NCBI RefSeq assembly: GCF_028473145.1
Contig: NZ_CP092370.1
Coordinates: forward strand, 1,736,001-1,800,000
Direction of reading: 5' to 3'
DNA from: Flavobacterium sp. CBA20B-1
GTDB taxonomy: Bacteria; Bacteroidota; Bacteroidia; Flavobacteriales; Flavobacteriaceae
DNA length: 64,000 nt
This document shows, one piece after another, positions 13,248 through 36,359 of this stretch (positions are counted from its first letter, which is position 1; the number at the start of each line of letters is the position of its first letter). The notes under the pieces were generated by a model that did no database searches, was not told the origin of the DNA, and saw nothing but the letters and a program-made list of their open reading frames with translations. A program made the translations under genes and the position numbers.

Positions 13248-13412
13248 CACCACTCAAAAATAGAAAAAATATAACTTGCTTTATGCTCGGATGAAAAAAA
13301 ATGCCTTTTCAAAATAGTTTTCAAAAAATAAACCTCGCTTAATAAGGCTTTAAACGAGGTTGGATATTCAATGTGTTTTCTGAAAAATGGAGGTTGTGCA
13401 AGGGTTGCAGAT
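13248..13412. repeat. 165-bp direct repeat, copy 1 (left array edge)
   Basis: Nearly the same sequence recurs at 15419-15588, with a few substitutions and indels. It contains an imperfect hairpin (AACCTCG ... CGAGGTT around 13335-13362) and ends in GCAGATGTTATACG, comparable to GCAGATGTTGGCGG at the second copy. The second copy is the body of an attC-like site, so this one is probably a decayed site marking the end of the array. Confidence 0.6.
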
Positions 13413-13437
13413 GTTATACGTTCGTTTTTTATTTTCC

Positions 13438-14139
13438 TCAAGCTCTTTCATAAATATATTGTGCTATCGATATTTTGTCTGCAAAATCTCGGTCAATATC
13501 GGCAAAGTGAAAAAATCCTTTTTCTAAACATTGAGATTTTTCTTTTATCCATAATTTTAAATTTCCAACAGAATCGTCATCAAAATCCCGAAACTCTTTT
13601 TTCTTGTTTTTTAAGTCGTTGTAATAGTTAAGTACTAAATCGACAAAATTTGAAAAACTATTGTCGGAAAAACTGATTGTCCAACGGTTTAGTAATTGCT
13701 CAATGTTGTTTGTTAATTTGTAAATTTCGGTAAAAACCTCTTTGTCAAAATATTTTTTTCGTTTAACTACGTCTGTCCACCAAGCCAATAAGAATTGCTT
13801 AATTGAAGTTTTTTCGGTTTCTGCCCATTCTTGCCATTTCCCATATTCAAGTTTTCCAAGTACTACGAAAGTGTCAAAAACAAAATCAGTAGTTGCTAAA
13901 AGTTCGAATATTCTCGGTAAGTAATGCTTAAAGTCATTTGTATCGCCCCAAGTTGTAATTGCCTTAAAAGCATACCTTGAAAGGTCGTCTTCAACTAAAT
14001 CTCGTAATTGTTTGGAATGGAATTTTTCTTTGTCAGAATCAGAAACACAGCAAGGACAACCTTCAATTGTCGATCTAAAAGGGTAAATCGAAAAAGTAGT
14101 GTATAGATTTTCAATAGCTATTTTCAGTTCTTCTGTCAT
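13438..14139 (-). CDS. Hypothetical protein (cassette cargo)
   Basis: A 233-residue soluble, mostly helical protein with many aromatic residues. A CPCC motif (EGCPCCVSDSDK, residues 27-38) near the N-terminus could bind metal. No signal peptide and no recognised family. It is the leftmost complete gene of the array, and its stop lies just beside the 165-bp repeat. Function unknown. Confidence 0.6.
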   Translation of the reverse strand: MTEELKIAIENLYTTFSIYPFRSTIEGCPCCVSDSDKEKFHSKQLRDLVEDDLSRYAFKAITTWGDTNDFKHYLPRIFELLATTDFVFDTFVVLGKLEYGKWQEWAETEKTSIKQFLLAWWTDVVKRKKYFDKEVFTEIYKLTNNIEQLLNRWTISFSDNSFSNFVDLVLNYYNDLKNKKKEFRDFDDDSVGNLKLWIKEKSQCLEKGFFHFADIDRDFADKISIAQYIYERA

Positions 14140-14196
14140 TTTTTTGGTATCTTTGTTTAAGCACGTCGCTACGCTTTTCGGGCTTTGATTTCGGGC

Positions 14197-14279
14197 GGCT
14201 AACTAGCACGAAACCGTCAATCTGTACTGAACTAGATGAAGCACAAAACTTCATTTAACCACTGCAGGCTTTGTTAGCA
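14197..14279 (-). repeat. attC-like site a (short, weak)
   Basis: The outer boxes are GGCTAAC (14197-14203) and GTTAGCA (14273-14279), an inverted pair 83 bp apart. The right box GTTAGC matches the left box GGCTAAC of site b, the other end of the same cassette. The internal arms are poor, so this is the least certain site. Confidence 0.4.
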
Positions 14280-14286
14280 AGCATTT

Positions 14287-15282
14287 TTACTTTAATTTTT
14301 TTATAAATCCATAAGTTGGAACAGGCGTTTTTCCGTTTGGTATTTCGCTAAATGCCTTGTAAAAAACATAGTCCTTGTTCTTTTCAATTCCATTAAAAGC
14401 TTTGATAATCTCTGAATGAACTTTTTCATACTCTGCGTTGGTTTGCACCGTATCTTTTAAGTCTAAGTTGGTCACATACTCAATCATCGGGAAATATCCT
14501 TCTTCAGTTCCTTGTGGATAGATTGACAAGATTTGTGGTTTTGAGTCAATTGCTTCAAGGGTCATTGGAAATTTATATTTAGAGTTTACTTCTTTCATTA
14601 CTTTTTCATAAAACCCTTTCATTTCCTCTTCTTTTTGATATTGCCAAAAATTATTGGCGGGATTTGCCACTCTTGAGCTTAGAAACATATTGTTCGCAGC
14701 ATTAATCAAATATCCATTTTCATGTTCTACTTTGGCTTCAGAGTACAATTCAGGGGCAGTTTTGTCATTGACTTTGTATTGTCCGAAATGAAGGATATTG
14801 AGCTTCCAACCATCGGGATACTTTCCATAAATGTTGGTAACAATAAATTCGTCAAGACCGCTTTTGGAAATTAAAAGGGAAATAAACATTTCTTCGTTTA
14901 AGGCTTGATAATTTATAGAATAGTCATTTAGTCCGCTAACTCCTGAAATAACAGTATTTCCAATCCCTGTAGTTGAATTCTTTGTATGAAATTGATTTAA
15001 AACTTTATAGTCAGTCGTAGTAATCACGCCACTTGCTTGTTCAAGCAATTGACCAATGTTATCACCACTTTTTTCTAATAACTTATCTGACATCATTGAT
15101 TTCAGAAGTTCAATATTATTTGTAGTAACGGCCTCCAAAACTTTTATGTCTAACGTTTCAATTTCATTTTTTAGACTTTGTTCAATGTTTTCGTCTTTCC
15201 AAATTCCTGTAGTTCCAACGTTACAGCTTTGAAGTACAAAGACTGTTATAATTGTCAAAAGGATTGTTTTTATTCTTATCAT
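14287..15282 (-). CDS. Hypothetical lipoprotein
   Basis: 331 residues with a lipoprotein signal peptide (IITVFVLQSC, Cys20 as the lipidated residue). The following 100 residues contain an NTF2/SnoaL-like pattern (VLEAVTTNNIELLKSMMS) as found in small ligand-binding domains, but this is only suggestive. A later part is rich in Asn and aromatic residues. The gene is the sole cargo of the cassette between sites a and b. Confidence 0.6.
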   Translation of the reverse strand: MIRIKTILLTIITVFVLQSCNVGTTGIWKDENIEQSLKNEIETLDIKVLEAVTTNNIELLKSMMSDKLLEKSGDNIGQLLEQASGVITTTDYKVLNQFHTKNSTTGIGNTVISGVSGLNDYSINYQALNEEMFISLLISKSGLDEFIVTNIYGKYPDGWKLNILHFGQYKVNDKTAPELYSEAKVEHENGYLINAANNMFLSSRVANPANNFWQYQKEEEMKGFYEKVMKEVNSKYKFPMTLEAIDSKPQILSIYPQGTEEGYFPMIEYVTNLDLKDTVQTNAEYEKVHSEIIKAFNGIEKNKDYVFYKAFSEIPNGKTPVPTYGFIKKLK

Positions 15283-15300
15283 TTTGTTCTTTTAAATGGT

Positions 15301-15590
15301 GGCTAACTGCTTTCGGCTTCGCGATGTTGGGAAATTAAAAATGCAAATACCCAATAAAATTTCAATGCTTAAATTTAGCACTATACCAACCATTTTACAA
15401 AACCGCATACACCTGTTTCACCACTCAAAAATAGAAAAAAATATCTTGCTTTATGCTCGGATGAAAATAAAATGCCTTTTCAAAATACTTTTCAAATAAT
15501 AAACCTCGCTTAATAAGGCTTTAAACGAGGTTGGATATTCTATGTGTTTTCTGAAAAATGGAGGTTGTGCACGGGTTGCAGATGTTGGCG
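15301..15590 (-). repeat. attC-like site b, containing copy 2 of the 165-bp repeat
   Basis: The left box is GGCTAAC (15301-15307) and the right box GTTGGCG (15584-15590). The repeat copy spans 15419-15588, with the AACCTCG/CGAGGTT hairpin inside. At 290 bp it is longer than the main class of sites in the array. Its left box matches the right box of site a. Confidence 0.5.
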
Positions 15591-15613
15591 GTAGTTTTCA
15601 GCGTGTAGTTGTT

Positions 15614-16623: not shown

Positions 16624-16646
16624 AGATGTTTGTTGCTTTAAAATGA

Positions 16647-16781
16647 CAGTAACGTTTTGCATGTATGAGTAGTTACGTGGTTTTGCACTAATCCGCCGTG
16701 GCGGAACACACCAAACTGAAAATCCTCGCGGATTTTCAGAAGTAGGCGACAAGTAGCAATTACTTATAGCTATTGTTGGGT
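16647..16781 (-). repeat. attC-like site c (135 bp)
   Basis: The left box is CAGTAAC (16647-16653) and the right box GTTGGGT (16775-16781). The arms GTATGAGTAGTTAC and CAATTACTTATAGC are largely complementary. Site k has the same arms (GAGTAGTTGCGTGG / AATTACTTATAGCC), so c and k belong to one site family. Confidence 0.6.
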
Positions 16782-16897
16782 TATCGTTTTTTTAATATTC
16801 CTTCGGTTATTATTTCAGTTTTTTCATAAAATGGATTGTAAAAATCAGGCTTCCATTCACCGTTTCTAAAGATGTAGGAAGAGTATTCATATCCCAT
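16781..16897 (-). CDS. Small ORF or read-through tail after the 16913 gene
   Basis: 38 codons starting at the ATG at 16897, in the same frame as the upstream gene and separated from it by a single TAA plus five codons. The product (MGYEYSSYIFRNGEWKPDFY and onward) reads like real protein. It is either a tiny separate gene or the C-terminus of the upstream gene cut off by a nonsense mutation. The stop codon touches the right box of site c. Confidence 0.4.
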   Translation of the reverse strand: MGYEYSSYIFRNGEWKPDFYNPFYEKTEIITEGILKKR

Positions 16898-16912
16898 TTC
16901 TCGTTTAATCTT

Positions 16913-17245: not shown

Positions 17246-17260
17246 AGTTTTTCAAATGAT

Positions 17261-17391
17261 ATACAACCGTCTCGGCTATGAGCAGTAGCAGCTTACAAGC
17301 CACTAAACTGTCCAATAGCACCGACCTTTGTTTTATGTTTATACTTTCGTTTTTGCACTGTCCGCCTGCTTGTTTATAGCCGTTGTTGTAG
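17261..17391 (-). repeat. attC-like site d (131 bp)
   Basis: The left box is ATACAAC (17261-17267) and the right box GTTGTAG (17385-17391). The arms TCGGCTATGAGCAGTAGC and GCCTGCTTGTTTATAGCC pair imperfectly. The last codons and stop of the neighbouring DUF6933 gene lie in the right box, as often seen at the end of integron cassette genes. Confidence 0.6.
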
Positions 17392-17901
17392 ATAGGCTTT
17401 TATTATTTCGTTCATTACTTCTTTCGGATATTTCCATTCCAAAATTTTATTTGGAGAACTATTCAATCCGCTATTTATTTTTCTAAATGGCAGATTTTCG
17501 TAGCCTCCATATTCCATTTTCCAATGGTCGATGCTGAACATACAATTATTCAGAGAACCATTCGCACTTCGGTCATTATTGGTCTCGCACAGTTTTATTT
17601 CTCCAATTATTTCTCTCAAAGTTCCGTACTCGATTTCAATTCCGTCGTGTTTGAGTTGGGAATGAAGCGTTTTTGTGAAAATTCCGGTGATGTTATTCAG
17701 TTCAGATGTTTTGATGTCCGAAAGAATAAGTAAATATTTGGTCAGCTTATTTACAATCAGCCAACATTTTTTTCTATCAACGTAAAAAATAGTCGCAACC
17801 CATTCGCCCAAAAATTTGTTTTCAGGTTCATCTTTTTCAACAATCGATTTTGCAATTGTTTTTTCAAGTTTTCGGGTTGTATAAACTTGGGTAAAATTCA
17901 T
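17374..17901 (-). CDS. DUF6933-like protein
   Basis: 175 residues. The pattern VYTTRKLEKTIAKSI, then WVATIFYVDRKKCWLIVNKL, then YLLILSDIKTSELNNITGIF resembles DUF6933, a family of unknown function found in scattered bacteria and mobile regions. No catalytic motif is visible. It is the sole cargo between sites d and e, and its C-terminus runs into site d. The family call rests on memory of the pattern. Confidence 0.55.
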   Translation of the reverse strand: MNFTQVYTTRKLEKTIAKSIVEKDEPENKFLGEWVATIFYVDRKKCWLIVNKLTKYLLILSDIKTSELNNITGIFTKTLHSQLKHDGIEIEYGTLREIIGEIKLCETNNDRSANGSLNNCMFSIDHWKMEYGGYENLPFRKINSGLNSSPNKILEWKYPKEVMNEIIKAYLQQRL

Positions 17902-17936
17902 TTAGTTTATTTTTTAGCGCAATTTGGGCAGCTTAT

Positions 17937-18066
17937 GCACAACGGTCTTGTATATGAAAAGTAGCGGATTTTATGCACTAAATTTTCGGTTTATAACTGA
18001 CCTTTATTTATTCATTTTGTTTCGATTAAGCGATTAAACCGCTATTTTTTATATACGTTGTTGTAC
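17937..18066 (-). repeat. attC-like site e (130 bp)
   Basis: The left box is GCACAAC (17937-17943) and the right box GTTGTAC (18060-18066). The arms TTGTATATGAAAAGTAGCGG and CCGCTATTTTTTATATACG are complementary with mismatches. It is about 85% alike to site f by eye. Its right box GTTGTACAC is the exact complement of GTGTACAAC at site f, the two ends of the restriction-modification cassette. Confidence 0.75.
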
Positions 18067-18183
18067 ACTGGCTTTTTTCCATTCGCTTGGTTTTCAGCGT
18101 TGGCAAAGACATACTCTTTTGCAATTTTTGGCTTGAGCTTTGGCTGTAGCGAATTGCAAATGTGTATGGCTTTAAGCGTTGGC

Positions 18184-21432: not shown

Positions 21433-21436
21433 ATAT

Positions 21437-21640: not shown

Positions 21641-21812
21641 TTCAGAATGTTTTCTATTTCTCAAATATACAATGATATTTTATTATCTCACTAGATGAGC
21701 TAAATATTTATCAACAATTTTGGGTGGTGGGAAAAGGCAAGCTCTTTTTGTTTTGTGAGGTACGAGCAAAATAAAATGTGCTTGACTGTGCGGTTGGCTT
21801 TTCAGAGCTTGT

Positions 21813-21943
21813 GTACAACGGTTGGGTATTGCCGAAGGCGGGGGATTTTGTGCACTAATTTTCGGATTATAACTGACCTTTAATTTATTCATTTTCTTTC
21901 GTTTAAGCTATTAAACCGCTATTTTTTATATACGTTGTTGGCG
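21813..21943 (-). repeat. attC-like site f (131 bp)
   Basis: The left box is GTACAAC (21813-21819) and the right box GTTGGCG (21937-21943). It shares most of its right half with site e (AAACCGCTATTTTTTATATA). The left arm has drifted. Its right box GTTGGCGGTA is the exact complement of TACCGCCAAC at site g, the other end of the next cassette. Confidence 0.75.
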
Positions 21944-21951
21944 GTAGTTTT

Positions 21952-22251
21952 TTAATATCCTCTTGGATATGTTGTCATTACAGGAATTCGAACATATTCT
22001 CCGTTCCCACCAAAATCATAAAACGCATTACTTTTACCATTAATCGCTTCAAGATTTACGTCTAGATATCCACTTACGTCTACTGTATTATCCACGTCAA
22101 CGCTCCCTGATACATCAATGTATCCACCTTTAACATATACATTCTGCTTTGTCGGAATAACTCCCGCATTTTGAAGCACAACTGCCCAAATTCCAATTGT
22201 TATTACAATTAAAATGGCTTTAAGTGAAATGTTTTTTGATTTAGTTTCCAT
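21952..22251 (-). CDS. Small membrane-anchored hypothetical protein
   Basis: 99 residues. One N-terminal membrane anchor (AILIVITIGIWAVVLQNAGV) is followed by a beta-strand-like repeat with alternating VDVSG / VDVDN units (YIDVSGSVDVDNTVDVSGYL). It lies 5 bp after the HEPN/Abi-like gene, so it is the second gene of that cassette and possibly its partner. No family was recognised. Confidence 0.6.
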   Translation of the reverse strand: METKSKNISLKAILIVITIGIWAVVLQNAGVIPTKQNVYVKGGYIDVSGSVDVDNTVDVSGYLDVNLEAINGKSNAFYDFGGNGEYVRIPVMTTYPRGY

Positions 22252-22256
22252 AATAT

Positions 22257-22997
22257 TTAGATAAAATTTAGAATTAGTCTTACGATTGAATTTACATTAT
22301 CTCTTATGTAAATAGCTGTCCATTTTTCTGCCCTATTTCCGCTATGTGAATCGCTAAAATTGTTTCGTGCATTGGCAACAGCATTTGTAATTGTCGATAT
22401 TAAAACAATGACTTGTTCTGGGTATTCTATGCTATTAGCGTCAAGTTCAGTTTTTATATAGTTTCTAACTTGAACTGCCATTGGTGTTAATTCGTTTAGG
22501 TGTATTTGAGTCGGGATTTTTTCACGAATAAATGATTTATAAAATCCCTCCAAGCAAGTGTATGAAAGAGTCAATGCTAATTCATAATTCCTTGAGTTAA
22601 TTGCATTATCTATTCTTTCAAGATATTCAATGAGTCTTTCCGCATTCCATAAATTTGCTGGTATAACTGCCTGTGAAACTTCTATCTGGTTATCAGGTTC
22701 TATAAAATCTCGAATTGTTGCAGTTCTTTCAGGTTCTAAATGACCAATTACTCCGAGTATTGAATTAACAATCTGAACTCTGTCGTTTTCGGGTTGTTCC
22801 ATTAGCAGATCAAAATAGTAATCTCTTCTGCTTGTACTTTTGTTATCAGCTCTACGTTGTTCAATATAGTTAGTGTATGAGGGTACATTGTAATTGACCT
22901 CTCTTATCGTATTAAGAAATCTTGTGCCTCCAAAATATGTTTCTCCTTGAGTATTTATTAATTCAAAAAGTCTATTAAATATCTGAATCCAATTCAT
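22257..22997 (-). CDS. Putative HEPN / abortive-infection C-terminal-domain protein
   Basis: 246 residues, all helical. The C-terminal half contains LSYTCLEGFYKSFIREKIP, then VANARNNFSDSHSG, an R-x6-H motif at the position expected in Abi_C and other HEPN ribonuclease-like domains. The N-terminal half is unrecognised. HEPN proteins of this type act in phage defence by cutting RNA; here that is inference. It shares a cassette with a small membrane protein, beside a restriction-modification cassette, which fits a defence role. Confidence 0.55.
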   Translation of the reverse strand: MNWIQIFNRLFELINTQGETYFGGTRFLNTIREVNYNVPSYTNYIEQRRADNKSTSRRDYYFDLLMEQPENDRVQIVNSILGVIGHLEPERTATIRDFIEPDNQIEVSQAVIPANLWNAERLIEYLERIDNAINSRNYELALTLSYTCLEGFYKSFIREKIPTQIHLNELTPMAVQVRNYIKTELDANSIEYPEQVIVLISTITNAVANARNNFSDSHSGNRAEKWTAIYIRDNVNSIVRLILNFI

Positions 22998-23021
22998 TTA
23001 GGCTTTCTTTTTTTTAATTAC

Positions 23022-23153
23022 CGCCAACGGTGAAGTATAAGCGTAGTGCGGGATTACGAAGCCGACACTTTCCATTTTGCCGATAAGTTTGTTAATAGTT
23101 CATAAGTTCAAATTTAGCTCTTTCGCCCGCATTATGCTTATACAATGTTGAAC
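23022..23153 (-). repeat. attC-like site g (132 bp), disrupted at its right box by element 1
   Basis: The left box is CGCCAAC (23022-23028) and the right box GTTGAAC (23147-23153). The arms AAGTATAAGCGTAGTGCGGG and CCCGCATTATGCTTATA are strongly complementary. The right box G at 23147 is followed by the 2.39-kb element. The original box (TTGGCAGTAG) resumes at 25538 and pairs with ACTGCCAAC at site h. Confidence 0.75.
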
Positions 23154-23272
23154 TAAACCTCCGGTAGCTTTCGTTGCGATGATATTCGTATCTTAGTATT
23201 TATTAACGATTAAATAATTGATACTATGGTAACTAAAAAAAATCTCCGGAGGAATTAAGAGCGAACAAATAT

Positions 23273-26605: not shown

Positions 26606-26631
26606 ACTTGTCTTTTTTTATTTTAAATTAC

Positions 26632-26761
26632 TGCCAACGGCTTAAATATGCGTAGTGCGGGATTTCGAGGCACTTTACTATCAAACCGCTATGTTGTTTA
26701 TTAAATGCTTTAATGTTCAAATTTACCAAATCGCCCGCATTACGTATATTTTTTGTTATGC
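26632..26761 (-). repeat. attC-like site h (130 bp)
   Basis: The left box is TGCCAAC (26632-26638) and the right box GTTATGC (26755-26761). The arms TATGCGTAGTGCGGG and CCCGCATTACGTATA are strongly complementary. Its right box GTTATGCGTA pairs with TACGCACAAC at site i with one mismatch. Confidence 0.75.
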
Positions 26762-26768
26762 GTAGTTT

Positions 26769-27947
26769 TCATTCGAACTTATATATTTTAATAGTTCCAT
26801 TTTCGTGATTTGAACGATAATTCCCTATAGCCACAATATTCCCTGTACCATTTAAGATAGTATTTAGCCCTTCCAATGTACTTCCTATCTGTTGCCATTT
26901 ATTGTTTTTGAGTTTATATGTTTTAACATAGCCATTTTTGTGGGTTGAGCTTGTAGATGAAGTAACTGAAATGATATTTCCATCATGGTTTATACTTATT
27001 CTATGACCAAAATAATCGTATTTATTCTCGCCTGTGATTTCCCCACCTATTTGTTCAAATTCAGTATCCATAATTTTGTAAATCATAACTTTTCCCAATG
27101 CTACTTTTTCATCAGTTCTATAGTCAGGAAAGCCTAATAATAGGTATTGTCCATTACCACTCAAAGAAAGATTGACAACATCAAAAATATTTTGTTTCTC
27201 TACTTTCAAAGTTTGTGTTTTTTCAAATGAACCATTTGAGATTTTATGAATTTCAAATATTGCATAATGCTTGTCTTTAATTGATATCGAATAGTTAATT
27301 GCTATTATTTTACCATCATTACTAAAGTTTAAATTTTTACTAATTGAATTAGGAACATTAACTGTAATTGTTTTAGCTAACCTTTCCATGTTGTTACCAT
27401 TTTTATGAAAAACTAATACTTCTTCATAATTGTATTGGCCCTCCATTTGGTTATTGCTTTGTTGTGCTGTGACGACTGCACTTACTGACGAATTAGTTTT
27501 GAAAGACAATCCTAAATGGTCATTGTTTTTTTTACCAATTAGACTGTCCCGATATATCCAGTTATTATCTTGTTTTTCTAAAAAATGTATTACCCCATTT
27601 TGGATGGAATCACCATTCTTCTGACTCTCTGAAATTAGAATGAGATTACCAGTTTCATTTATGCTTAAATGATCCCCAAAAGAACTGTTTTTTGATTTGC
27701 TGACTATTGTGTTTGCGACTTGAATCCATTTACTGTTTTTGAGTTCAAATACTTTTACAAATTTTGGCCTGTCAGAATAAGTTACAGCAATAGTATTTCC
27801 TTGTAAATTTAAATCATAATTTAGCCCAATTCTATTTAAACGTCCGTCACCTAATATATCTTCTCCAATTTGAACCCAATCCTGGCTCAAACAACTATAA
27901 AACGAGAATGAAACCATTAATAATAAACTCAATCTAATTTTTTTCAT
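26769..27947 (-). CDS. Secreted beta-propeller-like lipoprotein (FG-GAP-type repeats)
   Basis: 392 residues with a lipoprotein-type signal (MVSFSFYSC, Cys19). The rest consists of about six repeats with the pattern W.QIG..I.G, FG..ISIN..GN.I.VTS, for example YFGHRISINHDGNIISVTSS, which fits FG-GAP/WD-type beta-propellers that present a binding surface outside the cell. Binding partner unknown. It is the sole cargo of the cassette between sites h and i. Confidence 0.65.
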   Translation of the reverse strand: MKKIRLSLLLMVSFSFYSCLSQDWVQIGEDILGDGRLNRIGLNYDLNLQGNTIAVTYSDRPKFVKVFELKNSKWIQVANTIVSKSKNSSFGDHLSINETGNLILISESQKNGDSIQNGVIHFLEKQDNNWIYRDSLIGKKNNDHLGLSFKTNSSVSAVVTAQQSNNQMEGQYNYEEVLVFHKNGNNMERLAKTITVNVPNSISKNLNFSNDGKIIAINYSISIKDKHYAIFEIHKISNGSFEKTQTLKVEKQNIFDVVNLSLSGNGQYLLLGFPDYRTDEKVALGKVMIYKIMDTEFEQIGGEITGENKYDYFGHRISINHDGNIISVTSSTSSTHKNGYVKTYKLKNNKWQQIGSTLEGLNTILNGTGNIVAIGNYRSNHENGTIKIYKFE

Positions 27948-27961
27948 CTTTTTCTAATTAC

Positions 27962-28146
27962 GCACAACGGTCTGGGCTATACGTAGTGCGGGATTTGAAG
28001 ACTGAAAGTTTCAAATCGGCACGAAGTAGAGCGTAGCCGTTGAATATTTTAAATTTTCAATAAATATACAAAAGGCGAAGCGAATTACAAGACGAAAATT
28101 TCAAATTTCACACTTAATCCCGCATTATGTATAGCCTTTGTTGAAC
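27962..28146 (-). repeat. attC-like site i (185 bp), disrupted at its right box by element 2
   Basis: The left box is GCACAAC (27962-27968) and the right box GTTGAAC (28140-28146). The arms GGGCTATACGTAGTGCGGGA and TCCCGCATTATGTATAGCC are near-perfect complements. It is longer than most sites because of extra central sequence. The right box G at 28140 abuts element 2. Confidence 0.75.
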
Positions 28147-28265
28147 TAAACCTCCGGTAGCTTTCGTTGCGATGATATTCGTATCTTAGTATTTATTAAC
28201 GATTAAATAATTGATACTATGGTAACTAAAAAAAATCTCCGGAGGAATTAAGAGCGAACAAATAT

Positions 28266-29168
28266 TTGAATCGCGCTTGTAGTGAAATTAATGGTTTTTC
28301 TGAACTTCTGCAACGTTTTGAGCGTAATATTTCTATTTTAGGACGAAGTAAACGCACTTTCGAAAATTATTCTCGCCATGTTGCTGCAATGGCCTTACAT
28401 TTTGGCTGTTTACCAACCGAATTAGATCCTGAACAGGTTAAAGATTACCTCTTTGAACTCCAACAACGCTCTAAATCTCCTTCACAATCGTATTTTAAAC
28501 ACACCGTTTACGGACTTCGATTTCTACTAAAGACCGAAAATCTTCCGTATGATTATCTTCATTTACCGGCAATTCCTAAAGAAAAAAAACTTCCTGTTAT
28601 TTTAAGTCGTCATGAGATTTGGAAACTGCTTCAACATGCCGATTTGCTCAAACATCGCATTTTAATTGGTTTGATTTATAGCTGTGGATTGCGCTGTATG
28701 GAAGTGAGAAACATCGAACTCAAACATCTCGATTTCGATAGAAAATTACTACATATTGTTCAAAGTAAAGGGAAGAAAGATCGTTATGTTCCACTTTCTG
28801 ATCATATTATTCGAGGGATTAAAAAGTATATTTCGGTCGAACATCCTACCACCTTTTTATTTACCGGAAACACCAAAGATGCCAAAGGTTTTGATTCGCG
28901 TTATAGTCAGCGTGGGGTTCAATGGGTCATAAAATCGGTTTGTAAAAAGGCCGGAATTTTAAAAGATGTGCACACCCATACATTGCGTCACAGCTACGCT
29001 ACGCATTTGCTCGAAGATGGTGTAAATATTCTGCAAGTTCAGAAATTGATGGGACATGAACGTATTGAAACTACGATGGAATACTTACATGTTTGTCAGC
29101 TCGAAAACCAAAAAGTACACAGTCCAATTGATACCGTTTTTGCGCTATGCAGCCGCAATGGGAAGTAG
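28266..29168 (+). CDS. Tyrosine recombinase of element 2
   Basis: The 300-residue product is identical to the copy 1 recombinase, including the catalytic Arg143, His238, Arg241, His264 and Tyr273, the TTG start and the upstream ATG with its A8 run. At DNA level at least one silent change is visible (GGGTCATAAAA at 28924 against GGGTGATAAAA at 23931). It is probably functional and overlaps the transposase gene by 22 bp. Confidence 0.85.
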   Translation: MNRACSEINGFSELLQRFERNISILGRSKRTFENYSRHVAAMALHFGCLPTELDPEQVKDYLFELQQRSKSPSQSYFKHTVYGLRFLLKTENLPYDYLHLPAIPKEKKLPVILSRHEIWKLLQHADLLKHRILIGLIYSCGLRCMEVRNIELKHLDFDRKLLHIVQSKGKKDRYVPLSDHIIRGIKKYISVEHPTTFLFTGNTKDAKGFDSRYSQRGVQWVIKSVCKKAGILKDVHTHTLRHSYATHLLEDGVNILQVQKLMGHERIETTMEYLHVCQLENQKVHSPIDTVFALCSRNGK

Positions 29169-30244
29169 CCGATGTGCTCAAAAAAGTCGATTTGTCTAAC
29201 CAAAACTTTACGGTTCATCAAGAAAAAACACTTCGAGCATTGACTTTATGCAGAACTGCTGCTTTGGGCGGACATGTAGATGCTTGTGATACTTGCGGAA
29301 ACATCAGCATTAGCTACAACAGTTGCCGAAACAGACATTGTCCGAAATGTCAAGGTCATAAACGTGAAGAATGGATTCAGGCGCGCGAACAAGATTTATT
29401 GCCTTGTTCGTATTATCATGTGGTTTTTACCCTTCCAGATTCGCTTAATGGATTAACGATTCATCAGCCACAATTGATGTATAAAATCTTGTTTGATTCG
29501 GTTTGGGCAACGCTTTCTCAGTTCGGAAAAACTGAAAATATGCATTTAGGAATGATTGGAATTTTGCATACTTGGGGACAAAATCTGAGTTTGCATCCGC
29601 ATATTCATTGCATTATTCCTGGAGGTGGAATTGATGCAAACGGTAAATGGAAACGCAAGATAAAAACCGATAAATACTTGTTTTGTGTAAAAGCATTGAG
29701 TAAGGTTTTTCGAGCAAAATTTGTGGCCTCCATGCGTAAAGAAAGTTTAGGAAATCAAGCGTTGTACAATCAATTATTCGAAAAGAATTGGGTGGTTTAT
29801 GCCAAACGTCCTTTTGGTGGACCAAAACAAGTGATTGAATATTTAGGTAGATACACACACAAAGTAGCTATTAGCAATCATCGGATTAAAAACGTAACCA
29901 ATCACGAAGTTACCATGGCATACAAAGATTATAAAGACGGTAGTAAAACCAAGCAACTCACCTTAAAAAATGAAGAGTTTGTTCGCAGATTTAGTTTGCA
30001 TATTTTACCCAAACGCTTTGTTCGGATTAGGCATTATGGCATTTTAAGTAGTAGTTGGAAACGCGGAAAACTCCAACAATTACAAGAGCATTTAAATGTT
30101 GTAAGACCCGAAATCGAAATCAAAACACAACATAGAAAATGTTTTTGTTGTAAAATTGGAAATCTGGTTACGTTGCATGTTTTTGGGCAAAGAGGGCCGC
30201 CAAAAGTATATCTTATCGAAAATACACTTGCTTCTGTGAATTAA
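29147..30244 (+). CDS. IS91-family (HUH) transposase of element 2
   Basis: 365 residues with the same zinc finger, HPHIH motif and Tyr region as copy 1. It differs in the patch WATLSQFGKTENMHLGM (around 29505-29555) and in having Met instead of Ile in EVTMAYKDYK. The clustering of differences in an otherwise near-identical gene suggests that one copy received this segment from a third, diverged element. Confidence 0.92.
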   Translation: MQPQWEVADVLKKVDLSNQNFTVHQEKTLRALTLCRTAALGGHVDACDTCGNISISYNSCRNRHCPKCQGHKREEWIQAREQDLLPCSYYHVVFTLPDSLNGLTIHQPQLMYKILFDSVWATLSQFGKTENMHLGMIGILHTWGQNLSLHPHIHCIIPGGGIDANGKWKRKIKTDKYLFCVKALSKVFRAKFVASMRKESLGNQALYNQLFEKNWVVYAKRPFGGPKQVIEYLGRYTHKVAISNHRIKNVTNHEVTMAYKDYKDGSKTKQLTLKNEEFVRRFSLHILPKRFVRIRHYGILSSSWKRGKLQQLQEHLNVVRPEIEIKTQHRKCFCCKIGNLVTLHVFGQRGPPKVYLIENTLASVN

Positions 30245-30546
30245 CTTTTACGGGTAAGGGAACTTGTGTTTCATCGTTAAAAAAAGAAAGTGAAAAAGGT
30301 TGAAACAGTACAAGTTCAAACACAAAAAAAGCAGTAATGGCAAAATTACTGCTGGTATATTTTAAAGCTACACTTCGAAAACTCCCTAATACATAAAGCT
30401 ACTCCGGTGAGCCTGCCCTGAGTTTATCGAAGGGTTCAACGGGCTTTACTTCACTTGTTTATTATTTGTTTTGGTGTTCAGTGATTTTCAATTCATCTCA
30501 TGCCCTCCGGGCAAGACGAAAGCTTAGTTATTAGAAGTTTTATTAT

Positions 30547-31752
30547 TTATCGTATCAACTTTATAAAAGCGTCTCCTCTGTCACTAGAACTTCTCATATA
30601 CAGAGATTTTTCTTTTTTTCTCGGTATGTCAAACTCGATTAATCCTGCTTCACAATAATAAAGCAAAGAGTTTTCGTCTTTAAATTCAATGTTTGAAACA
30701 GGAATATTTGTTAGTTGAAATTCCTCTATTTTTTTTCCTGTCTTTAAGTCTAATTTGAAAATCACACCTTTTTCAGTATAGCCCCACAAAAAACCTTTAT
30801 TCTCCGTAATGTATTCAATTTTATCATTATTGAATTCTGTTTTCCAGTTTAATATTCCATTTTCTGTTTTTAGAGAATAAACAGCTGTTTTTTCACTACC
30901 TTTTGTTCCGAAGTATATATTGTCTGTATGACAAAAAATCCGCTCTTTAATATTATGTTGATTTTCAGGTAATTCATATTCCCAAAGAATATCCAAGTTA
31001 TAGGGTTTCATTGCATATAAAGTTCTGCTCTCGTCTGAAATAAAAATATTTTTATTGTCGGTTACGGGCTTTCCATACATGGCTTTTTTAAACCCTCTTT
31101 TGTACAGTGCTTTTCCTGTTTGGGCATCAAAACTATAAAAATAAGGGGCACTTTGTGTGAATACCTTATTGTCAAAAAATAAAACAGGAATGTGATTATA
31201 AGGGTAGTCTAATTTATAATTCCAAATCAATCCACCATCTTTAATGTCAAGTGCATAAATGTTGCTATTGTCGTTTTGAGTAGTTATGTAAAGTTGGTTA
31301 TCAATGATTGTTGGAATTTGATTTTTAATGATAATTCCCTCTTTGATATTACCTAAACGCGTTTTCCAAAATGCTTTGCCTGTTTGGTTATTAAGTGCAT
31401 AAATTTCCCCATTAATGAAAGGAACATAAACAATTCCGTCTTTAAGTGTCAGTTTATTTCCAGACATTGTCCTATCGGGATCGGTTGCTTGTGCCTTCCA
31501 ATTAATTTTTTCTGTACTCAAATTGTAAGAAATTAGTGTTCCATCCAAATCATAAATTAGGATAGAGCTTGTGTCTAAAGGTATTTTTTTTATTTGAGCA
31601 ATAGAATTATTAAAAACCATATCTTCCATAGTCAATATTTGATTATTTGAATATGAATTTTTATCACTTTGAGGTGCAGGATTTGGTGCTTGTGCCAATA
31701 ACTGACACGACACTACCATAAAGAATAGAAAAGTTGAAATTGTTCTTTGCAT
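30547..31752 (-). CDS. Secreted PQQ-binding-like beta-propeller protein
   Basis: The ATG at 31752 was taken as the start, because the extra upstream residues come from the 158-bp repeat. The signal peptide is ISTFLFFMVVSCQLLAQ. The mature protein shows repeats of the PQQ/BamB type (YALNNQTGKAFWKTRLGN, YALDIKDGGLIWNYKL, YSLKTENGILNWKTEF), forming a seven- or eight-bladed propeller. Such proteins bind partners or cofactors outside the cytoplasm; the role here is unknown. It is the sole gene of the cassette between element 2 and site j. Confidence 0.75.
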   Translation of the reverse strand: MQRTISTFLFFMVVSCQLLAQAPNPAPQSDKNSYSNNQILTMEDMVFNNSIAQIKKIPLDTSSILIYDLDGTLISYNLSTEKINWKAQATDPDRTMSGNKLTLKDGIVYVPFINGEIYALNNQTGKAFWKTRLGNIKEGIIIKNQIPTIIDNQLYITTQNDNSNIYALDIKDGGLIWNYKLDYPYNHIPVLFFDNKVFTQSAPYFYSFDAQTGKALYKRGFKKAMYGKPVTDNKNIFISDESRTLYAMKPYNLDILWEYELPENQHNIKERIFCHTDNIYFGTKGSEKTAVYSLKTENGILNWKTEFNNDKIEYITENKGFLWGYTEKGVIFKLDLKTGKKIEEFQLTNIPVSNIEFKDENSLLYYCEAGLIEFDIPRKKEKSLYMRSSSDRGDAFIKLIR

Positions 31753-31774
31753 AATGTGGGTTTTTAAAATTTCT

Positions 31775-32063
31775 GCATAACGGGGCGGCGGCTTTGCGAA
31801 GTTCTTTTTCCGAGCTTGCTCGGGGAAAGGATTTAGCAAAACCGCATGATGTGCGAAGTTCGCGAAGCGACAAGCGCATCGTGCGGTGCAGGCGTCGCCC
31901 CGATGTAGCGAAAGGAGCGTAAGCGGATTTCGCTACATCGGTATCGGCTATGCGTAGTGCGGGATTTCAAGGTACTTACCTTTCAATTTAGCACTTCGTT
32001 TATTTAATGTAATCACCTTCATTTCAGCACTTTCGCCCGCATTACGTATAGCCATTGTTGGGC
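31775..32063 (-). repeat. attC-like site j (289 bp = 131 bp + 158-bp insert)
   Basis: The left box is GCATAAC (31775-31781) and the right box GTTGGGC (32057-32063). The arms GGCTATGCGTAGTGCGGG and CCCGCATTACGTATAGCC are almost fully complementary. The 158-bp repeat sits directly after the left box. The right box GTTGGGCGTT pairs with GACGCCCAAC at site k. Confidence 0.8.
31782..31939. repeat. 158-bp GC-rich hairpin element, copy 1
   Basis: Three copies of identical length lie at 31782, 34184 and 36202, always right after the AAC of a site's left box and in the same orientation. Each contains a 12-bp perfect stem GATGTAGCGAAA / TTTCGCTACATC, the near-palindrome ACCGCATGATGTGC / GCGCATCGTGCGGT and GGGGCG...CGCCCC ends. 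It is far richer in GC than its surroundings and carries no convincing gene. Confidence 0.85.
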
Positions 32064-32068
32064 GTTCG

Positions 32069-34132
32069 TTATTCTTTTTCCGCATATTTTATTGTCAATT
32101 CATCTTCTGAATCAAAAATTGTCAATGCGTGTTTTATCTTCTCAAATTTTCCAATATTGTCAATGTTTCCTTCAATGAAATAAGTATCATTTATTGCAAC
32201 TGCTTGTCTTGGATTTCCTTCTTTTGGATTTTTAGTTAAGGTTATTTTCTCCGCCAAGTCTGTTGTAAAAAATGTCTCTGGCTGTAAGTCAAAAAGTTGT
32301 TTAAATACTTCTACATATAATTTAGCAACTTGATTAACTTCTATTTTTTGGTCGAAGAAGATAGCATACTCCAATTTTTTATGTTTTGGGTCTTCTGCTT
32401 CAAAAATGTTTACTTCATTGTTTTCATCTCTTTCTTCTAATTCGATTTCTGGCATTTGCCAAATTTTCAAAAATCGTTCTGCAAGAAGGTCAAAGCGTCT
32501 TTCTATTTCTGCTTTATCCCATTTGTCTGAAATTGACAAATACTTATTAAGCCACAAGCGACTGTCTTTATATCCTGCATTTTCTAAATCTCTTTTAAAT
32601 ACGAACGGTTTGTTTCCAAGTTTTCCATTGTTACCCGATAATGTCAAATTACCAATTGTGTTCAAATAGGTTTCTTTGATTAAATTGTATTCATCTGCTC
32701 CTAAATCCACTTTCCATTTCGGGTCAGGGTTTTGAGGGAAAATATGTTCTATGGTTATATCTGTATTTCCTTCAATTATTACTGGTTCGTTATTTTCAAA
32801 ATTCTCAAGTCGTTCAAGAAGGTAAGTTCTGTTTTTGGATTTTATGTTGTAAACATCTTTTAGTTTAAGGCTTTCAATAACTTCTTTGTTTTTTGGAAAA
32901 CGTTGTGAGCCTGGTCTTTTTAGTAACCATTTTTGCAAGGACAACAAATAGTCGTTTTTATCCACTTTTTCGTAAAGCGTCATAAATATTTTGTTCAAAG
33001 CGTTTGTTGGCAAACCGACTATAAATCTTCTCCAAGCAAAGGATTGTATGAAATCCAAAACTTTTATAAAAGTTGACTTGTCAATTATGTTTTCTGAATA
33101 GTCTTCATAAACTTTCATTAAAAACGGATAAGCCACATTTATTTCAAGCCTGTTTATATATTCAAGTTGTAATCTTATGTCTTTGTCCGTCTCGTTTTTT
33201 GGATTAAGAAGTTTATTATAAAACTTAACAAGCGATTTTATTGGTGAAAGATTGGTTTCTAATTCTTGTAAGTCAGTTGTTGGAAACTTTGCTTTAAACT
33301 CCAAATAAACTTTGCTTTTGTTAGGGATTTTGTTGTTTACTAAAGTCAAATAATCTCTAATAAAATCAGAAACTTTGCTTGTATTCAAGGTTTCATCTTT
33401 TGCGAGTTTCTCAATGATTTCCCAATAGTTGTTATAAATCTTGTTTTGGTCTCTACGATTGAGCCCCATCAAAATATAGTTTCTAATTAAGTCTGCTTGT
33501 GATAATTCAAGACCTGTTGAGTTTAAACTTTCAAAAATTCTTTGAGGGTCGTCTTTTTCTCTATCAAGCGAAATTTCTACAAACATCAGTTTTGAAAGTC
33601 CTTTCAAGACGAACTCAAAATTTTCTTCAGTTATCCTGCTTTTAAAGTAGTTGAAATTATCTATTACTTTAGAAAAGTCGCTAAATTCTTCGTCTTTGTC
33701 GCTTCTCAAAAGGTATTTTATTGCTTTGTCGTTATTTTCTGTTGGTCGAAGTTTTAACTTTTCTTCTTCGGGTGCAAACTTGTTTGTGAGATATGTTTCT
33801 GAAATTTCGGCTTCAAGTCCTTTGTCTCCAATTTCAATTGCCAAACGATAAAGAGCCAAATAAATTAAAGTCAAAGTAGTCAATCTTTGCTGTCCGTCAA
33901 TTACAGTCAGTTCTTTAATTCGTGAAGAAGTGTAAACATCATCGTGAACGTAAACAACACTACCAATGAAGTGAGCATTCATTTTGCTACTTGTTCCGAC
34001 CTCCAAAATGTCATCTAAAAGTTGTTTGCACTGACTTGTCGACCAATCGTAATTTCTTTGGTAAACTGGAATTACAAATTGTGTCTTATTTGAAGATAAA
34101 AAGTCTTCTACTTTCGTTTCGTTTGCTTTCAT
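32069..34132 (-). CDS. DUF262 and DUF1524 (GmrSD-like) protein
   Basis: 687 residues. The DUF262 domain is at the N-terminus, with VYQRNYDWS near residue 20 and the nucleotide-binding/hydrolysis motif VIDGQQRLTTL near 78. The central region is helical, and the DUF1524 HNH-like nuclease motif TIEHIFPQNPDPKW lies near 465, followed by NTIGNLTLSGNNGKLGN. This is the single-chain layout of GmrSD-type restriction enzymes, which cut modified phage DNA. Substrate specificity is unknown. It is the only gene of the cassette between sites j and k. Confidence 0.85.
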   Translation of the reverse strand: MKANETKVEDFLSSNKTQFVIPVYQRNYDWSTSQCKQLLDDILEVGTSSKMNAHFIGSVVYVHDDVYTSSRIKELTVIDGQQRLTTLTLIYLALYRLAIEIGDKGLEAEISETYLTNKFAPEEEKLKLRPTENNDKAIKYLLRSDKDEEFSDFSKVIDNFNYFKSRITEENFEFVLKGLSKLMFVEISLDREKDDPQRIFESLNSTGLELSQADLIRNYILMGLNRRDQNKIYNNYWEIIEKLAKDETLNTSKVSDFIRDYLTLVNNKIPNKSKVYLEFKAKFPTTDLQELETNLSPIKSLVKFYNKLLNPKNETDKDIRLQLEYINRLEINVAYPFLMKVYEDYSENIIDKSTFIKVLDFIQSFAWRRFIVGLPTNALNKIFMTLYEKVDKNDYLLSLQKWLLKRPGSQRFPKNKEVIESLKLKDVYNIKSKNRTYLLERLENFENNEPVIIEGNTDITIEHIFPQNPDPKWKVDLGADEYNLIKETYLNTIGNLTLSGNNGKLGNKPFVFKRDLENAGYKDSRLWLNKYLSISDKWDKAEIERRFDLLAERFLKIWQMPEIELEERDENNEVNIFEAEDPKHKKLEYAIFFDQKIEVNQVAKLYVEVFKQLFDLQPETFFTTDLAEKITLTKNPKEGNPRQAVAINDTYFIEGNIDNIGKFEKIKHALTIFDSEDELTIKYAEKE

Positions 34133-34176
34133 TTATTCAATTCTGTTCAATGTTTGTTCGGGTTCTCTCTAATGAC

Positions 34177-34465
34177 GCCCAACGGGGCGGCGGCTTTGCG
34201 AAGTTCTTTATCCGAGCTTGCTCGGGGAAAGGATTTTGCAAAACCGCATGATGTACGAAGTTCGCGAAGCGACAAGCGCATCGTGCGGTGCAGGCGTCGC
34301 CCCGATGTAGCGAAAGGAGCGTAAGCGGATTTCGCTACATCGGTATCGGCTATGAGTAGTTGCGTGGGGTAGCACTTAACTTTGCAAGTACACACCAAAC
34401 TGAAAATCCGCGAGGATTTTCAGAATTAGGCGAGAACAAGCAATTACTTATAGCCATTGTTGTGC
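34177..34465 (-). repeat. attC-like site k (289 bp = 131 bp + 158-bp insert)
   Basis: The left box is GCCCAAC (34177-34183) and the right box GTTGTGC (34459-34465). The arms GGCTATGAGTAGTTGCG and CAATTACTTATAGCC are complementary with mismatches. The 158-bp repeat follows the left box. The right box GTTGTGCGT pairs exactly with ACGCACAAC at site l. Confidence 0.8.
34184..34341. repeat. 158-bp GC-rich hairpin element, copy 2
   Basis: Same length and position relative to the left box as copies 1 and 3. A handful of single-base differences are visible (for example TTTATCC for TTTTTCC, GATTTTGC for GATTTAGC, GTACGAAG for GTGCGAAG). These small changes show that the copies are not a very recent triplication. 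Confidence 0.85.
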
Positions 34466-34473
34466 GTTCGTTT

Positions 34474-35349
34474 TTATTCTTCTTTAAATATATTTTTATA
34501 GTGTTCAACGTGATGGGGAAATTCCTCTTCGTAAAACGGGTAACTTATTCCCAAAATTGAGATTTCATAACCTTCATCTTTCATTCCTGTAATTGCATTT
34601 CCAGCAACTCCTTTTATTACAAGTCCGTCTTGCCTGAATACTTTTAGTTCTGATATAACTTGAGTATCAATAAATTCAAATTCTGGGTCGTCAGTATTTA
34701 TTACAATATTATTTTTCAAGCAATACTCTTTAAAGAATTTGTATGGACTTTCAATTCCGTTAAATTCAATTTGTCCGAAGGCAACACCCATTGGTGCATC
34801 TGCTTTTTCGAGTCTTGAAGTTCCAATTTCTTTGTCTTCCAAAACTATATTGTAGGTTCTCTTACAACTGTTTAGTACCTTTTCGTTGTAAAAATCTAAA
34901 TAATAGTCAGAAGCAAGGCATTCGAATGTCTCATCTTTAAAAAAGAATATGAAATGTTTTCTGTCCGAATTATTATTCTGAATTCTTTCAATTGGATTTG
35001 GTAATTTTCTATCTAATCCACTTTTGATTTCATAGAATTCTCCCCATTCTAATTCCGTTGGCTTAATTCTGTACTGACCATAGTAAAAACCTTCGTCATT
35101 GCAAGTGTTCAGAGAATATTCAGCACAGTTTTTAAATCGAATTTTAACTTTGTCGCCTTCTTGATACTTGTTGAATTGAAAATGATTGAGATAAATATCC
35201 ATTATTAAGTCAATTCCGTCCACTTTCAATTCAATTTCTGGTGAAACAGGGTCAGCATTCCAATCCTTTGTTATTTGGATATAGTCAATTTTTCGAGTTG
35301 GAATTTCCTCTGTCTTTTTTGTTCCAAATATTTTATTTATCCAACTCAA
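34474..35349 (-). CDS. Hypothetical protein (cassette cargo)
   Basis: A 291-residue soluble protein with no signal peptide. The sequence is mixed alpha/beta, rich in Glu, Lys and aromatics, with KHFIFFFKDETFECLASDYY in the middle and GVAGNAITGMKDEGYEISIL near the end. No family was recognised. It is the sole gene of the cassette between sites k and l. Confidence 0.6.
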   Translation of the reverse strand: MSWINKIFGTKKTEEIPTRKIDYIQITKDWNADPVSPEIELKVDGIDLIMDIYLNHFQFNKYQEGDKVKIRFKNCAEYSLNTCNDEGFYYGQYRIKPTELEWGEFYEIKSGLDRKLPNPIERIQNNNSDRKHFIFFFKDETFECLASDYYLDFYNEKVLNSCKRTYNIVLEDKEIGTSRLEKADAPMGVAFGQIEFNGIESPYKFFKEYCLKNNIVINTDDPEFEFIDTQVISELKVFRQDGLVIKGVAGNAITGMKDEGYEISILGISYPFYEEEFPHHVEHYKNIFKEE

Positions 35350-35380
35350 TTTCGTTTGTTTTCGGGTTTTCTTAAATGAC

Positions 35381-35571
35381 GCACAACGGTAAAGTATAAA
35401 CGCAGTAGCGGAGTAGGGAAATCGAAACTTTCAACTTTACACAAACATAAGCTACTTGCATATTCATTTGCTAAATTTACAAAAAGGAAATTAATTTGCA
35501 AGTAGCGACAAAGAATGCACTCACGTTGAATTTGACACTTAACCTGCTATTGCGTTTATACATTGTTGGGT
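35381..35571 (-). repeat. attC-like site l (191 bp)
   Basis: The left box is GCACAAC (35381-35387) and the right box GTTGGGT (35565-35571). The arms GTATAAACGCAGTAGC and CTGCTATTGCGTTTATAC are complementary. Its right box GTTGGGTGTA is the complement of TACACCCAAC at the terminal half-site m. Confidence 0.75.
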
Positions 35572-35580
35572 GTAGTTTTT

Positions 35581-35880
35581 TTATTCAGTCAATCTATTTT
35601 TCAAATCCATTCGTTCGTGTAAAATTCTGATTACCTCAATTTTATTTTCCGAAAGTGATTGGTAAAATATAATGTGTTTTCCGGATTTTAGTCCGTGTAA
35701 GTTTTTACTTATTCCATAATATTCTTTTCCAACTTCTGGATTTTCTCCAATTCCATTACAAGCAATTTTTATTGTCGCATAATATTTATCCGCTTGTTTT
35801 TCAGACCATTTTTCATAAGTATAGTCCCAAATGTCGTTCAAATCATCAATGGCTTCTTGTCTTAATATTACTTTAGCCAT
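35581..35880 (-). CDS. RelE/ParE-family toxin
   Basis: 99 residues with the ParE fold signature: RQEAIDDLNDIWDYTYEKWS at the N-terminus, then GKEYYGISKNLHGLKSGKHI and the C-terminal IEVIRILHERMD. ParE toxins poison DNA gyrase and RelE toxins cut mRNA; ParE fits better because the partner is a ParD-type antitoxin. It overlaps the antitoxin gene by 8 bp. The pair is the cargo of the outermost cassette. Toxin-antitoxin pairs in cassette arrays are known to stabilise them against loss. Confidence 0.87.
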   Translation of the reverse strand: MAKVILRQEAIDDLNDIWDYTYEKWSEKQADKYYATIKIACNGIGENPEVGKEYYGISKNLHGLKSGKHIIFYQSLSENKIEVIRILHERMDLKNRLTE

Positions 35881-36121
35881 TTTTTCGTTTTTCAGCTTTT
35901 AGCCTTTTTAGATTTTCATCAAAGTCAAAGTCTTCAACTAAAGGACTATTCAATCCTTCTTGAATTGCATTTCTTAATGCGATTACTTTGCTTTCTTCAT
36001 TTTCCAATAGTCGAAGTCCAGCTCTTATAACCTCGCTTACATTTTTATAACGTCCAGCAGAAATCTGAGTTTGTACAAACTGATCAAAATAATTTCCGAG
36101 CGATATTGATGTATTTTTCAT
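35873..36121 (-). CDS. ParD-family antitoxin
   Basis: 82 residues. MKNTSISLGNYFDQFVQTQI and GRYKNVSEVIRAGLRLLE match the ParD/CopG ribbon-helix-helix domain. The C-terminal half (VEDFDFDENLKRLKAEKRK) would wrap the toxin. The antitoxin comes first in the operon, as usual, and likely represses it. An AT-rich stretch with a palindrome-like TACCAAATTTTGGTA at 36143-36157 lies just upstream and could be its operator. Confidence 0.88.
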   Translation of the reverse strand: MKNTSISLGNYFDQFVQTQISAGRYKNVSEVIRAGLRLLENEESKVIALRNAIQEGLNSPLVEDFDFDENLKRLKAEKRKNG

Positions 36122-36142
36122 TTCATTTTAATTTTACTCAAA

Positions 36143-36157
36143 TATACCAAATTTTGG
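36143..36157. promoter_or_regulatory. Palindrome upstream of parD-type gene (putative operator)
   Basis: TACCAAATTTTGGTA is a near-perfect palindrome 22 bp upstream of the antitoxin start. ParD-type antitoxins bind palindromes overlapping their own promoters, so autoregulation here is plausible but inferred. Confidence 0.5.
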
Positions 36158-36194
36158 TAAAATAGTCAAATTTTTAGATTTTCGCTCAAATTAC

Positions 36195-36359
36195 ACCCAA
36201 CGGGGCGGCGGCTTTGCGAAGTTCTTTTTCCGAGCTTGCTCGGGGAAAGGATTTAGCAAAACCGCATGATGTGCGAAGTTCGCGAAGCGACAAGCGCATC
36301 GTGCGGTGCAGGCGTCGCCCCGATGTAGCGAAAGGAGCGTAAGCGGATTTCGCTACATC
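36195..36359 (-). repeat. Terminal half-site m with 158-bp hairpin element, copy 3
   Basis: The box ACCCAAC (36195-36201) is followed at once by the third copy of the 158-bp repeat (36202-36359). Then sequence changes abruptly to AT-rich DNA (CAAATATATACGAAAG) upstream of ssb. No right arm or right box exists. This marks the right end of the array. No attI-like site or integrase is seen next to it. Confidence 0.7.

Follow-up and report, generated by a model that had tools for sequence, protein, structure and literature searches.

Canonical integrons carry an attI site beside the integrase gene, and their attC sites are palindromes in which boxes follow the order R''-L''...L'-R' and in which the bottom strand gives the better fold. 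Complementarity between the R' and R'' boxes within a cassette is the defining trait of canonical integron cassettes. Canonical attC sites are known targets of some insertion sequences and of group II introns of class C. Clusters of attC sites lacking integron-integrases (CALINs) are defined in PMC9668308 as at least two attC sites that the standard model calls at a spacing of less than 4 kb, with no IntI. Bacteroidota are among the phyla listed with integrons in PMC8618304, and PMC10013915 reports a Tenacibaculum genome to be without integrons by an integron-finding program. Here we describe a 64,000-nucleotide stretch of Flavobacterium sp. CBA20B-1 (contig NZ_CP092370.1, positions 1,736,001 to 1,800,000; hereafter the window, whose own coordinates are used), in which imperfect palindromes, their outer boxes reading NNNCAAC ... 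CCGTTGNNN, stand between the minus-strand genes at about 13.2-36.4 kb. The locus is very probably an integron-type cassette array run by a dedicated lineage of tyrosine recombinases (TR) apart from IntI. An earlier note, made from the letters of the window alone, had read the sites as attC-like and the whole as a cassette array, perhaps of a diverged integron class, and all three proposals are upheld. Our literature search found no description of a TR-linked system; preprints and most subscription papers lay outside its scope, so one may be in print elsewhere.

Of the attC-like separators of the window nine are strong and two weak; two more are decayed and were seen by eye alone. Their rough minus-strand consensus is NNNNCAAC AAN, a stem part with TATA and AATNGGG, a variable middle, a stem part with CCCNCANTNC and TATA, and NNNACC GTTGNNNN. 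The R boxes of pairing sets 1 and 2 (below) mostly read GTTR with free letters after it, the strict core of IntI integrons being GTTRRRY. A structure alignment of 11 sites, seven from the window and four from another array (C) of the same genome, has 83.4% of the cells of the named stem paired, a share that falls to 34-39% if the pairing partners are displaced by 1-3 columns. After shuffling of the 3' letters among sequences the mean was 71.6% and 0 of 500 shuffles reached 83.4%; 13 of the 23 stem pairs show two-sided changes. The sites thus show what marks attC, a conserved fold ending in R'' and R' boxes. The bottom strand was the better fold in 68 of 94 and 38 of 46 site-model matches, taken from stored alignments that include one opposite-strand match and one site counted twice.

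A covariance model built from the 11 sites (R1) recovered nine minus-strand sites in the window at E ≤ 2.2e-7; since seven of them also built the model, the fair test lies in the other two and in sites elsewhere. In the 3.04-Mb host genome R1 revealed three clusters, each with its strong sites on one strand, namely array A (the window), array B (about 1.163-1.181 Mb) and array C (2.431-2.442 Mb), and a lone strong site at 1.117 Mb outside them. A second model from 94 sites (R2) added the weak window sites s4 and s3. R1 sites (E ≤ 0.001) were present in 66 of 121 genomes of the genus and R2 sites in 214 of 295 Bacteroidia genomes. Among 26 IntI-bearing genomes outside Bacteroidia, R2 found sites somewhere in seven and none in 19, so that sites of this type also occur outside the class.

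The recombinase linked to these sites, TR, is a divergent tyrosine recombinase encoded at C1:1160504-1161634 of the same genome, where it adjoins array B. The earlier note had proposed a covariance-model search for more sites and an integrase; such a search was made, and TR occupies the position expected of intI, beside a sister array and in many relatives. An integrase gene adjoins the cassette array at array B and in many relatives; array A has none beside it, the TR locus lying 0.6 Mb away. TR was found at E ≤ 1e-50 in 138 of 295 Bacteroidia genomes, and sites occurred in 131 of these 138 versus 83 of the 157 TR-negative genomes (odds ratio 16.7). A scan for TR loci in named genomes found 95, of which 80 were kept, spanning Flavobacteriaceae, through Chryseobacterium and Epilithonimonas, to Balneicella. 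R2 located 157 sites in 52 of these loci, and all 157 lie upstream of TR, on the opposite strand and the array-facing side, pointing away; given this one-sidedness, false R2 matches must be rare at TR loci. Where at least 2 kb was available upstream of TR, 45 of 49 loci had sites (the exceptions are L133, L142, L145 and L164). In a genus set of 26 genomes, partly picked for having sites, 13 of 16 TR loci had sites no more than about 3 kb from TR, in one case at E 0.023. A further class set gave adjacent sites at 11 of 20 TR loci; these 20 came from the first 38 rows of the TR ranking, most near-contig-start matches and some others being skipped without a rule, and sites beside a few of them were known before selection. 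Of its nine site-less loci, four run into the end of the contig after about 1 kb or less on the side where sites are expected, and five do not.

The pairing of the R boxes points to cassettes that have been circles. If circles are opened at G^TT, the opening R' box of a cassette and its closing R'' box derive from one and the same site and are expected to pair, and since the two boxes of one array site come from different cassettes, no pairing is expected within a site. Seven variable bases beyond GTT were scored, for sites less than 6 kb apart; an undetected intervening site within that distance would count against the rule. Set 1 held 108 sites, 13 of them without a readable box, and left out opposite-strand shadows, the weakest matches and the sites of L032, L034, L035, L051 and L054. 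Its mean was 5.71 of 7 within cassettes (n=76, 57 with 6 or 7) versus 2.74 within sites (n=95, three with 6 or 7), with a shuffled mean of 2.68. Set 2, with 45 of 46 sites (one opposite-strand shadow left out; three without both boxes), gave 5.94 (n=32, 25 with 6 or 7) versus 2.93 (n=42, none). Set 3, all 157 sites of the 80-locus scan, gave 6.55 (n=101, 94 with 6 or 7) versus 2.68 (n=138, six). In each of the three sets 0 of 20,000 permutations were as high as the cassette pairing. As read from the sequences, this cassette-wise pairing marks the cassettes as once circular. The features of the window array, from its start leftward, are as follows.

36359-36375, minus strand: attI-like array start, TTTCGTATATATTTGTG, with TATATTTG at 36361-36368; the same sequence opens arrays B and C
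36201-36358, minus strand: 158-bp palindromic element at G^TT of attI
35581-36121, minus strand: cassette 1, ParE toxin (35581-35880) and ParD antitoxin (35873-36121), by Pfam
35380-35572, minus strand: attC-like site s13, R1 108.7 bits; its R'' pairs with R' at 36201, 7 of 7
34474-35349, minus strand: cassette 2, 291-aa protein, no Pfam family in a Pfam search; DNA match in G468
34183-34466, minus strand: attC-like site s12, R1 46.4 bits for 34334-34466, with a 158-bp element (34183-34340) at its G^TT
32069-34132, minus strand: cassette 3, GmrSD-type nuclease (Pfam PF03235, PF07510; PADLOC Orf5 and HEC-06 models)
31781-32064, minus strand: attC-like site s11, R1 94.3 bits for 31932-32064, with a 158-bp element (31781-31938) at its G^TT
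30547-31839, minus strand: cassette 4, beta-propeller (PQQ_2-like) protein, by Pfam
28143-30532, plus strand: IS91-family element in R'' of s10, tyrosine recombinase (28266-29168) and Y2 transposase (29147-30244)
27961-28147, minus strand: attC-like site s10, R1 114.2 bits, R'' split by the IS91 element
26769-27947, minus strand: cassette 5, 392-aa protein, no Pfam family in a Pfam search
26631-26762, minus strand: attC-like site s9, R1 93 bits
25590-26605, minus strand: cassette 6, 168-aa and 140-aa proteins, no Pfam family in a Pfam search
23150-25539, plus strand: other copy of the IS91-family element, in R'' of s8, 19 differences in 2390 bases
23021-23154, minus strand: attC-like site s8, R1 116.2 bits, R'' split by the IS91 element
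21952-22997, minus strand: cassette 7, 246-aa and 99-aa proteins, no Pfam family in a Pfam search
21812-21944, minus strand: attC-like site s7, R1 92.1 bits
18184-21664, minus strand: cassette 8, restriction-modification set (HTH protein, two C5 methylases, HNH nuclease), by Pfam and PADLOC
17936-18067, minus strand: attC-like site s6, R1 115.5 bits
17374-17901, minus strand: cassette 9, DUF6933 protein (Pfam) with a weak PADLOC PDC-S63 match
17260-17392, minus strand: attC-like site s5, R1 101.4 bits
16913-17245, minus strand: cassette 10, 110-aa protein, no Pfam family in a Pfam search
16646-16782, minus strand: weak attC-like site s4, R2 28.5 bits, E 0.0019
15306-15594, minus strand: weak attC-like site s3, R2 25.6 bits and E 0.0072 for 15306-15409, right end by eye
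14196-14280, minus strand: possible decayed site s2, GCTAAC...GTTAGC, by eye, absent from R1 and R2 matches

A further decayed site lies near 13.3 kb, by eye only. In the window, pairing reaches six or seven of the seven bases in the cassettes that end at s13, s12, s11, s9, s7 and s6, and is lower at s5 (5 of 7) and at s4 and s3 (2 of 7 each). At s8 the host flank past the IS91 element fits the pairing by eye; at s10 it does not. The earlier note had described palindromes with outer boxes between minus-strand genes, as are found at about 13.2-36.4 kb. It had placed the array at 13248-36359; the real start lies further right, at the attI-like stretch, and to the left of 16.8 kb only weak or decayed sites occur. 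Its reading of all cargo as minus-strand is correct for the cassettes and fails for the two plus-strand IS91-family copies. The long palindrome near the right end given there is a separate element, of 158 bp. ParDE, the GmrSD-type nuclease and the C5-methylase/HNH set agree with the cargo types it had named; of the HEPN/Abi proteins also named, none appeared at E ≤ 1e-3 by Pfam (20 proteins) or PADLOC (10 proteins).

TR is distinct from IntI. Searching the whole host genome with the IntI model TIGR02249 gave only tyrosine recombinases below the cut-off, TR itself scoring 202 bits against a cut-off of 265. Its alignment to IntI4 2a3v omits residues 205-245, and among the alignment rows displayed the IntI-specific block is absent from 15 TR-family rows and present in 13 IntI rows. 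By sequence, then, TR is not an IntI and lacks the IntI-specific insert, so that it falls outside the family of integrases with the additional domain. Like Xer and archaeal XerA-like recombinases, TR exceeds the cut-off of NCBIfam NF040815 (223.2 bits, cut-off 220), and its best solved relative by sequence is 4a8e. It differs from Xer in having an extra N-terminal domain, in adjoining cassette arrays and in its place in the tree, where TR groups with IntI and three Xer-like rows stand apart (support 100/99). The TR group is separate and, together with IntI and the IS91-linked recombinase, splits from Xer. The N-terminal domain (residues 1-62 of P0004) follows a beta-beta-alpha-beta-beta pattern that is extra relative to Xer. 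A HARP-like identity for it was considered and rejected, Pfam giving no HARP family at E ≤ 10, and Foldseek gave no match at E ≤ 0.001; the domain matches neither a family nor a fold with confidence. IntI above the cut-off occurred in one of 295 Bacteroidia genomes versus 105 of 395 in a phylum-wide sample; G037 is the sole Bacteroidia genome of the 295 with a canonical IntI above the cut-off. The earlier note had seen no integron integrase in view. This holds for IntI, none being above the cut-off in the genome, but a different tyrosine recombinase adjoins the sister array and arrays in many relatives.

Arrays A, B (L032) and C (L009) of the host open with one attI-like motif, which resembles a motif beside TR in relatives. 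To search for attI, the R' box of the first cassette was predicted from the R'' box of the site nearest TR, and the gap to TR was scanned for it with one mismatch allowed. The predicted first R' was found in 47 of 50 gaps, 27 times exactly. Of these boxes, 42 are 53-183 bp away from where the TR match begins, and 40 of the 42 stand behind a TATAT-like motif, CGTATATTTGTGTGTT. An attI-like site is thus found beside the integrase gene. The window attI-like stretch holds TATATTTG, which fits the TAnnTTTG box of Bacteroidetes promoters, and one might guess from the letters at a promoter at attI reading into the array; the strict T/CATATTTG occurs in only 10 of 42 attI contexts, which weakens this idea. 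Arrays A and C have the attI-like start without a neighbouring TR, and TR could serve both in trans.

Cassettes shared between genomes have their edges at the boxes. G468 has a 90% DNA copy of the 291-aa window cassette; the match opens at the second T of G^TT and ends 3 bases beyond R'', and the 120 bases outside the match are 50% and 46% identical, the random level. A transporter-like cassette is 92% alike in Paenimyroides aestuarii (G416) and Flavobacteriaceae bacterium NBU2973 (L128), which belong to two genera. Both copies open with TTGTGGTTA and close with an identical R'' box, and identity drops from 92-94% immediately within both edges to 51-53% immediately beyond them, against 50% for random pairs; the BLAST alignment extended 54 bases into the preceding half-site. 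The ParDE cassette of the window has an 83% DNA match in G416 that starts at most 3 bases from G^TT. When 65 cassettes were compared with other genomes to locate their boundaries, 59 matches resulted, mostly to IS91 elements or to parts of genes; clean edges were found only for c0 against G468, c18 against L128 and the start of c26. The c18 match in Maribacter litopenaei (L186; same numbers in L107) stops short of the edges. The earlier note had held that fixed gene order with no gain or loss at G^TT would speak against cassettes; the shared cassettes are instead bounded at G^TT and R''.

In the transporter-like and ParDE pairs the two copies have different palindromes after R'', and the cassette copies in G468 and G406 have no palindrome there (loci compared: L036, which is G416, L128, L057, L059 and L062). 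From these comparisons, the attC palindrome may be exchanged or lost apart from the gene, with the gene and R boxes kept.

Other elements also occupy the sites. The IS91 copy at 23150 has both the Y2 transposase and the zinc-binding domain of its family (NF033538 at 420.3 bits, PF04986, PF14319). The host has three IS91-family copies in two arrays, all in R'' and in a single orientation relative to the site; the third (L009 5466-8838) has an extra 293-aa reading frame (L009 7860-8741). Group II introns (RF02001) were found twice in array B (L033 10802-12763 and 13649-15600) and once in G416 (L036 8691-9343), and an intron-like sequence, by sequence likeness only, lies at 1.117 Mb (L035 near 4972). 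The three introns and the 1.117-Mb sequence have a common 5' junction, CTTGTGTGTGCCC, at the R'' region. The 158-bp element has nine full host copies at G^TT, three at attI and six at attC-like sites (L009, L032, L033 and the window). It is perhaps a gene-less cassette, although it starts with AT and not TT.

Like canonical integrons, these loci have an integrase gene by attI, palindromes of the form R''-L''...L'-R', cassette-wise pairing and a bottom strand that folds better more often. They differ from them in a recombinase that lacks the IntI-specific insert and forms its own group, in the co-orientation of TR with the array in one subgroup, in R boxes that often pair over 9-10 bases, and in that R2 misses the sites at the IntI loci tried. 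The system works like an integron in the clearly testable features and has no IntI-type integrase; it is therefore an integron-type system of its own lineage and not a member of the IntI integrons.

An ordinary IntI integron that lost intI would leave a canonical CALIN, which would account for attC-like sites in a window with no above-cut-off IntI; the window array does resemble a CALIN in having no integrase of its own beside it, and IntI is common elsewhere in the phylum sample. Yet the array keeps an attI-like start with TR elsewhere in the genome, and arrays in many genomes adjoin this different recombinase. Sites are widespread in a class in which IntI is nearly absent, and R2 has no good match in eight stretches around seven IntI genes (best E 0.21), so that we regard such a remnant as quite unlikely. 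Still less probable, in our judgement, is that the tyrosine recombinase encoded upstream in IS91 elements moves the cassettes and TR is a bystander. That recombinase has an SPxD tail and no IntI insert, like TR; all ten distinct copies of the IS91 element with this recombinase whose left end is in view are joined there to GTTGAAC, and an R2 site stands at the junction in eight, L064 and L067 being outside the model search. The plus-strand insertions of the window resemble such elements, but they lie at one point, the R'' of attC-like sites and not the R' crossover. The copies are few, and array starts and attI are marked by TR and not by the IS recombinase. More likely the IS91 element uses the sites as a target, as some elements do with canonical attC.

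The earlier note had also asked whether the palindromes fit another repeat family better. Imperfect palindromes between co-oriented genes, and a 158-bp palindromic element repeated at the same places, could suggest REP/MITE-like repeats or terminators that merely lie between genes. Such repeats leave the within-cassette pairing unexplained, since box pairing tracks the cassette and not the palindrome copy; sites near the 80 TR genes keep without exception to one side and strand, and no Rfam family reaches its gathering threshold in the window. We give this reading hardly any credence.

Under the favoured explanation, an integron-type array run by the TR lineage, TR made from the locus beside the sister array would recognise folded attC sites and attI and serve the window array in trans. 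It would cut at CCG^TT of the R' box, with the single folded bottom strand as substrate, and would free cassettes as circles or capture circles, with insertion preferentially behind attI. TR is thus the inferred catalyst of this recombination.

Overall, Bacteroidia probably have an undescribed integron lineage of their own, with sites in about seven of ten sampled genomes and an IntI relative without the domain held essential for cassette recombination. If this is true, capture of cassettes at folded sites either predates the IntI domain or arose twice. A recombinase without the IntI-specific domain makes the purpose of that domain and the origin of attC sites testable. If arrays lie in most Bacteroidia, surveys based on IntI and standard attC models may miss a large pool of mobile genes, which here includes restriction systems and a toxin-antitoxin pair.

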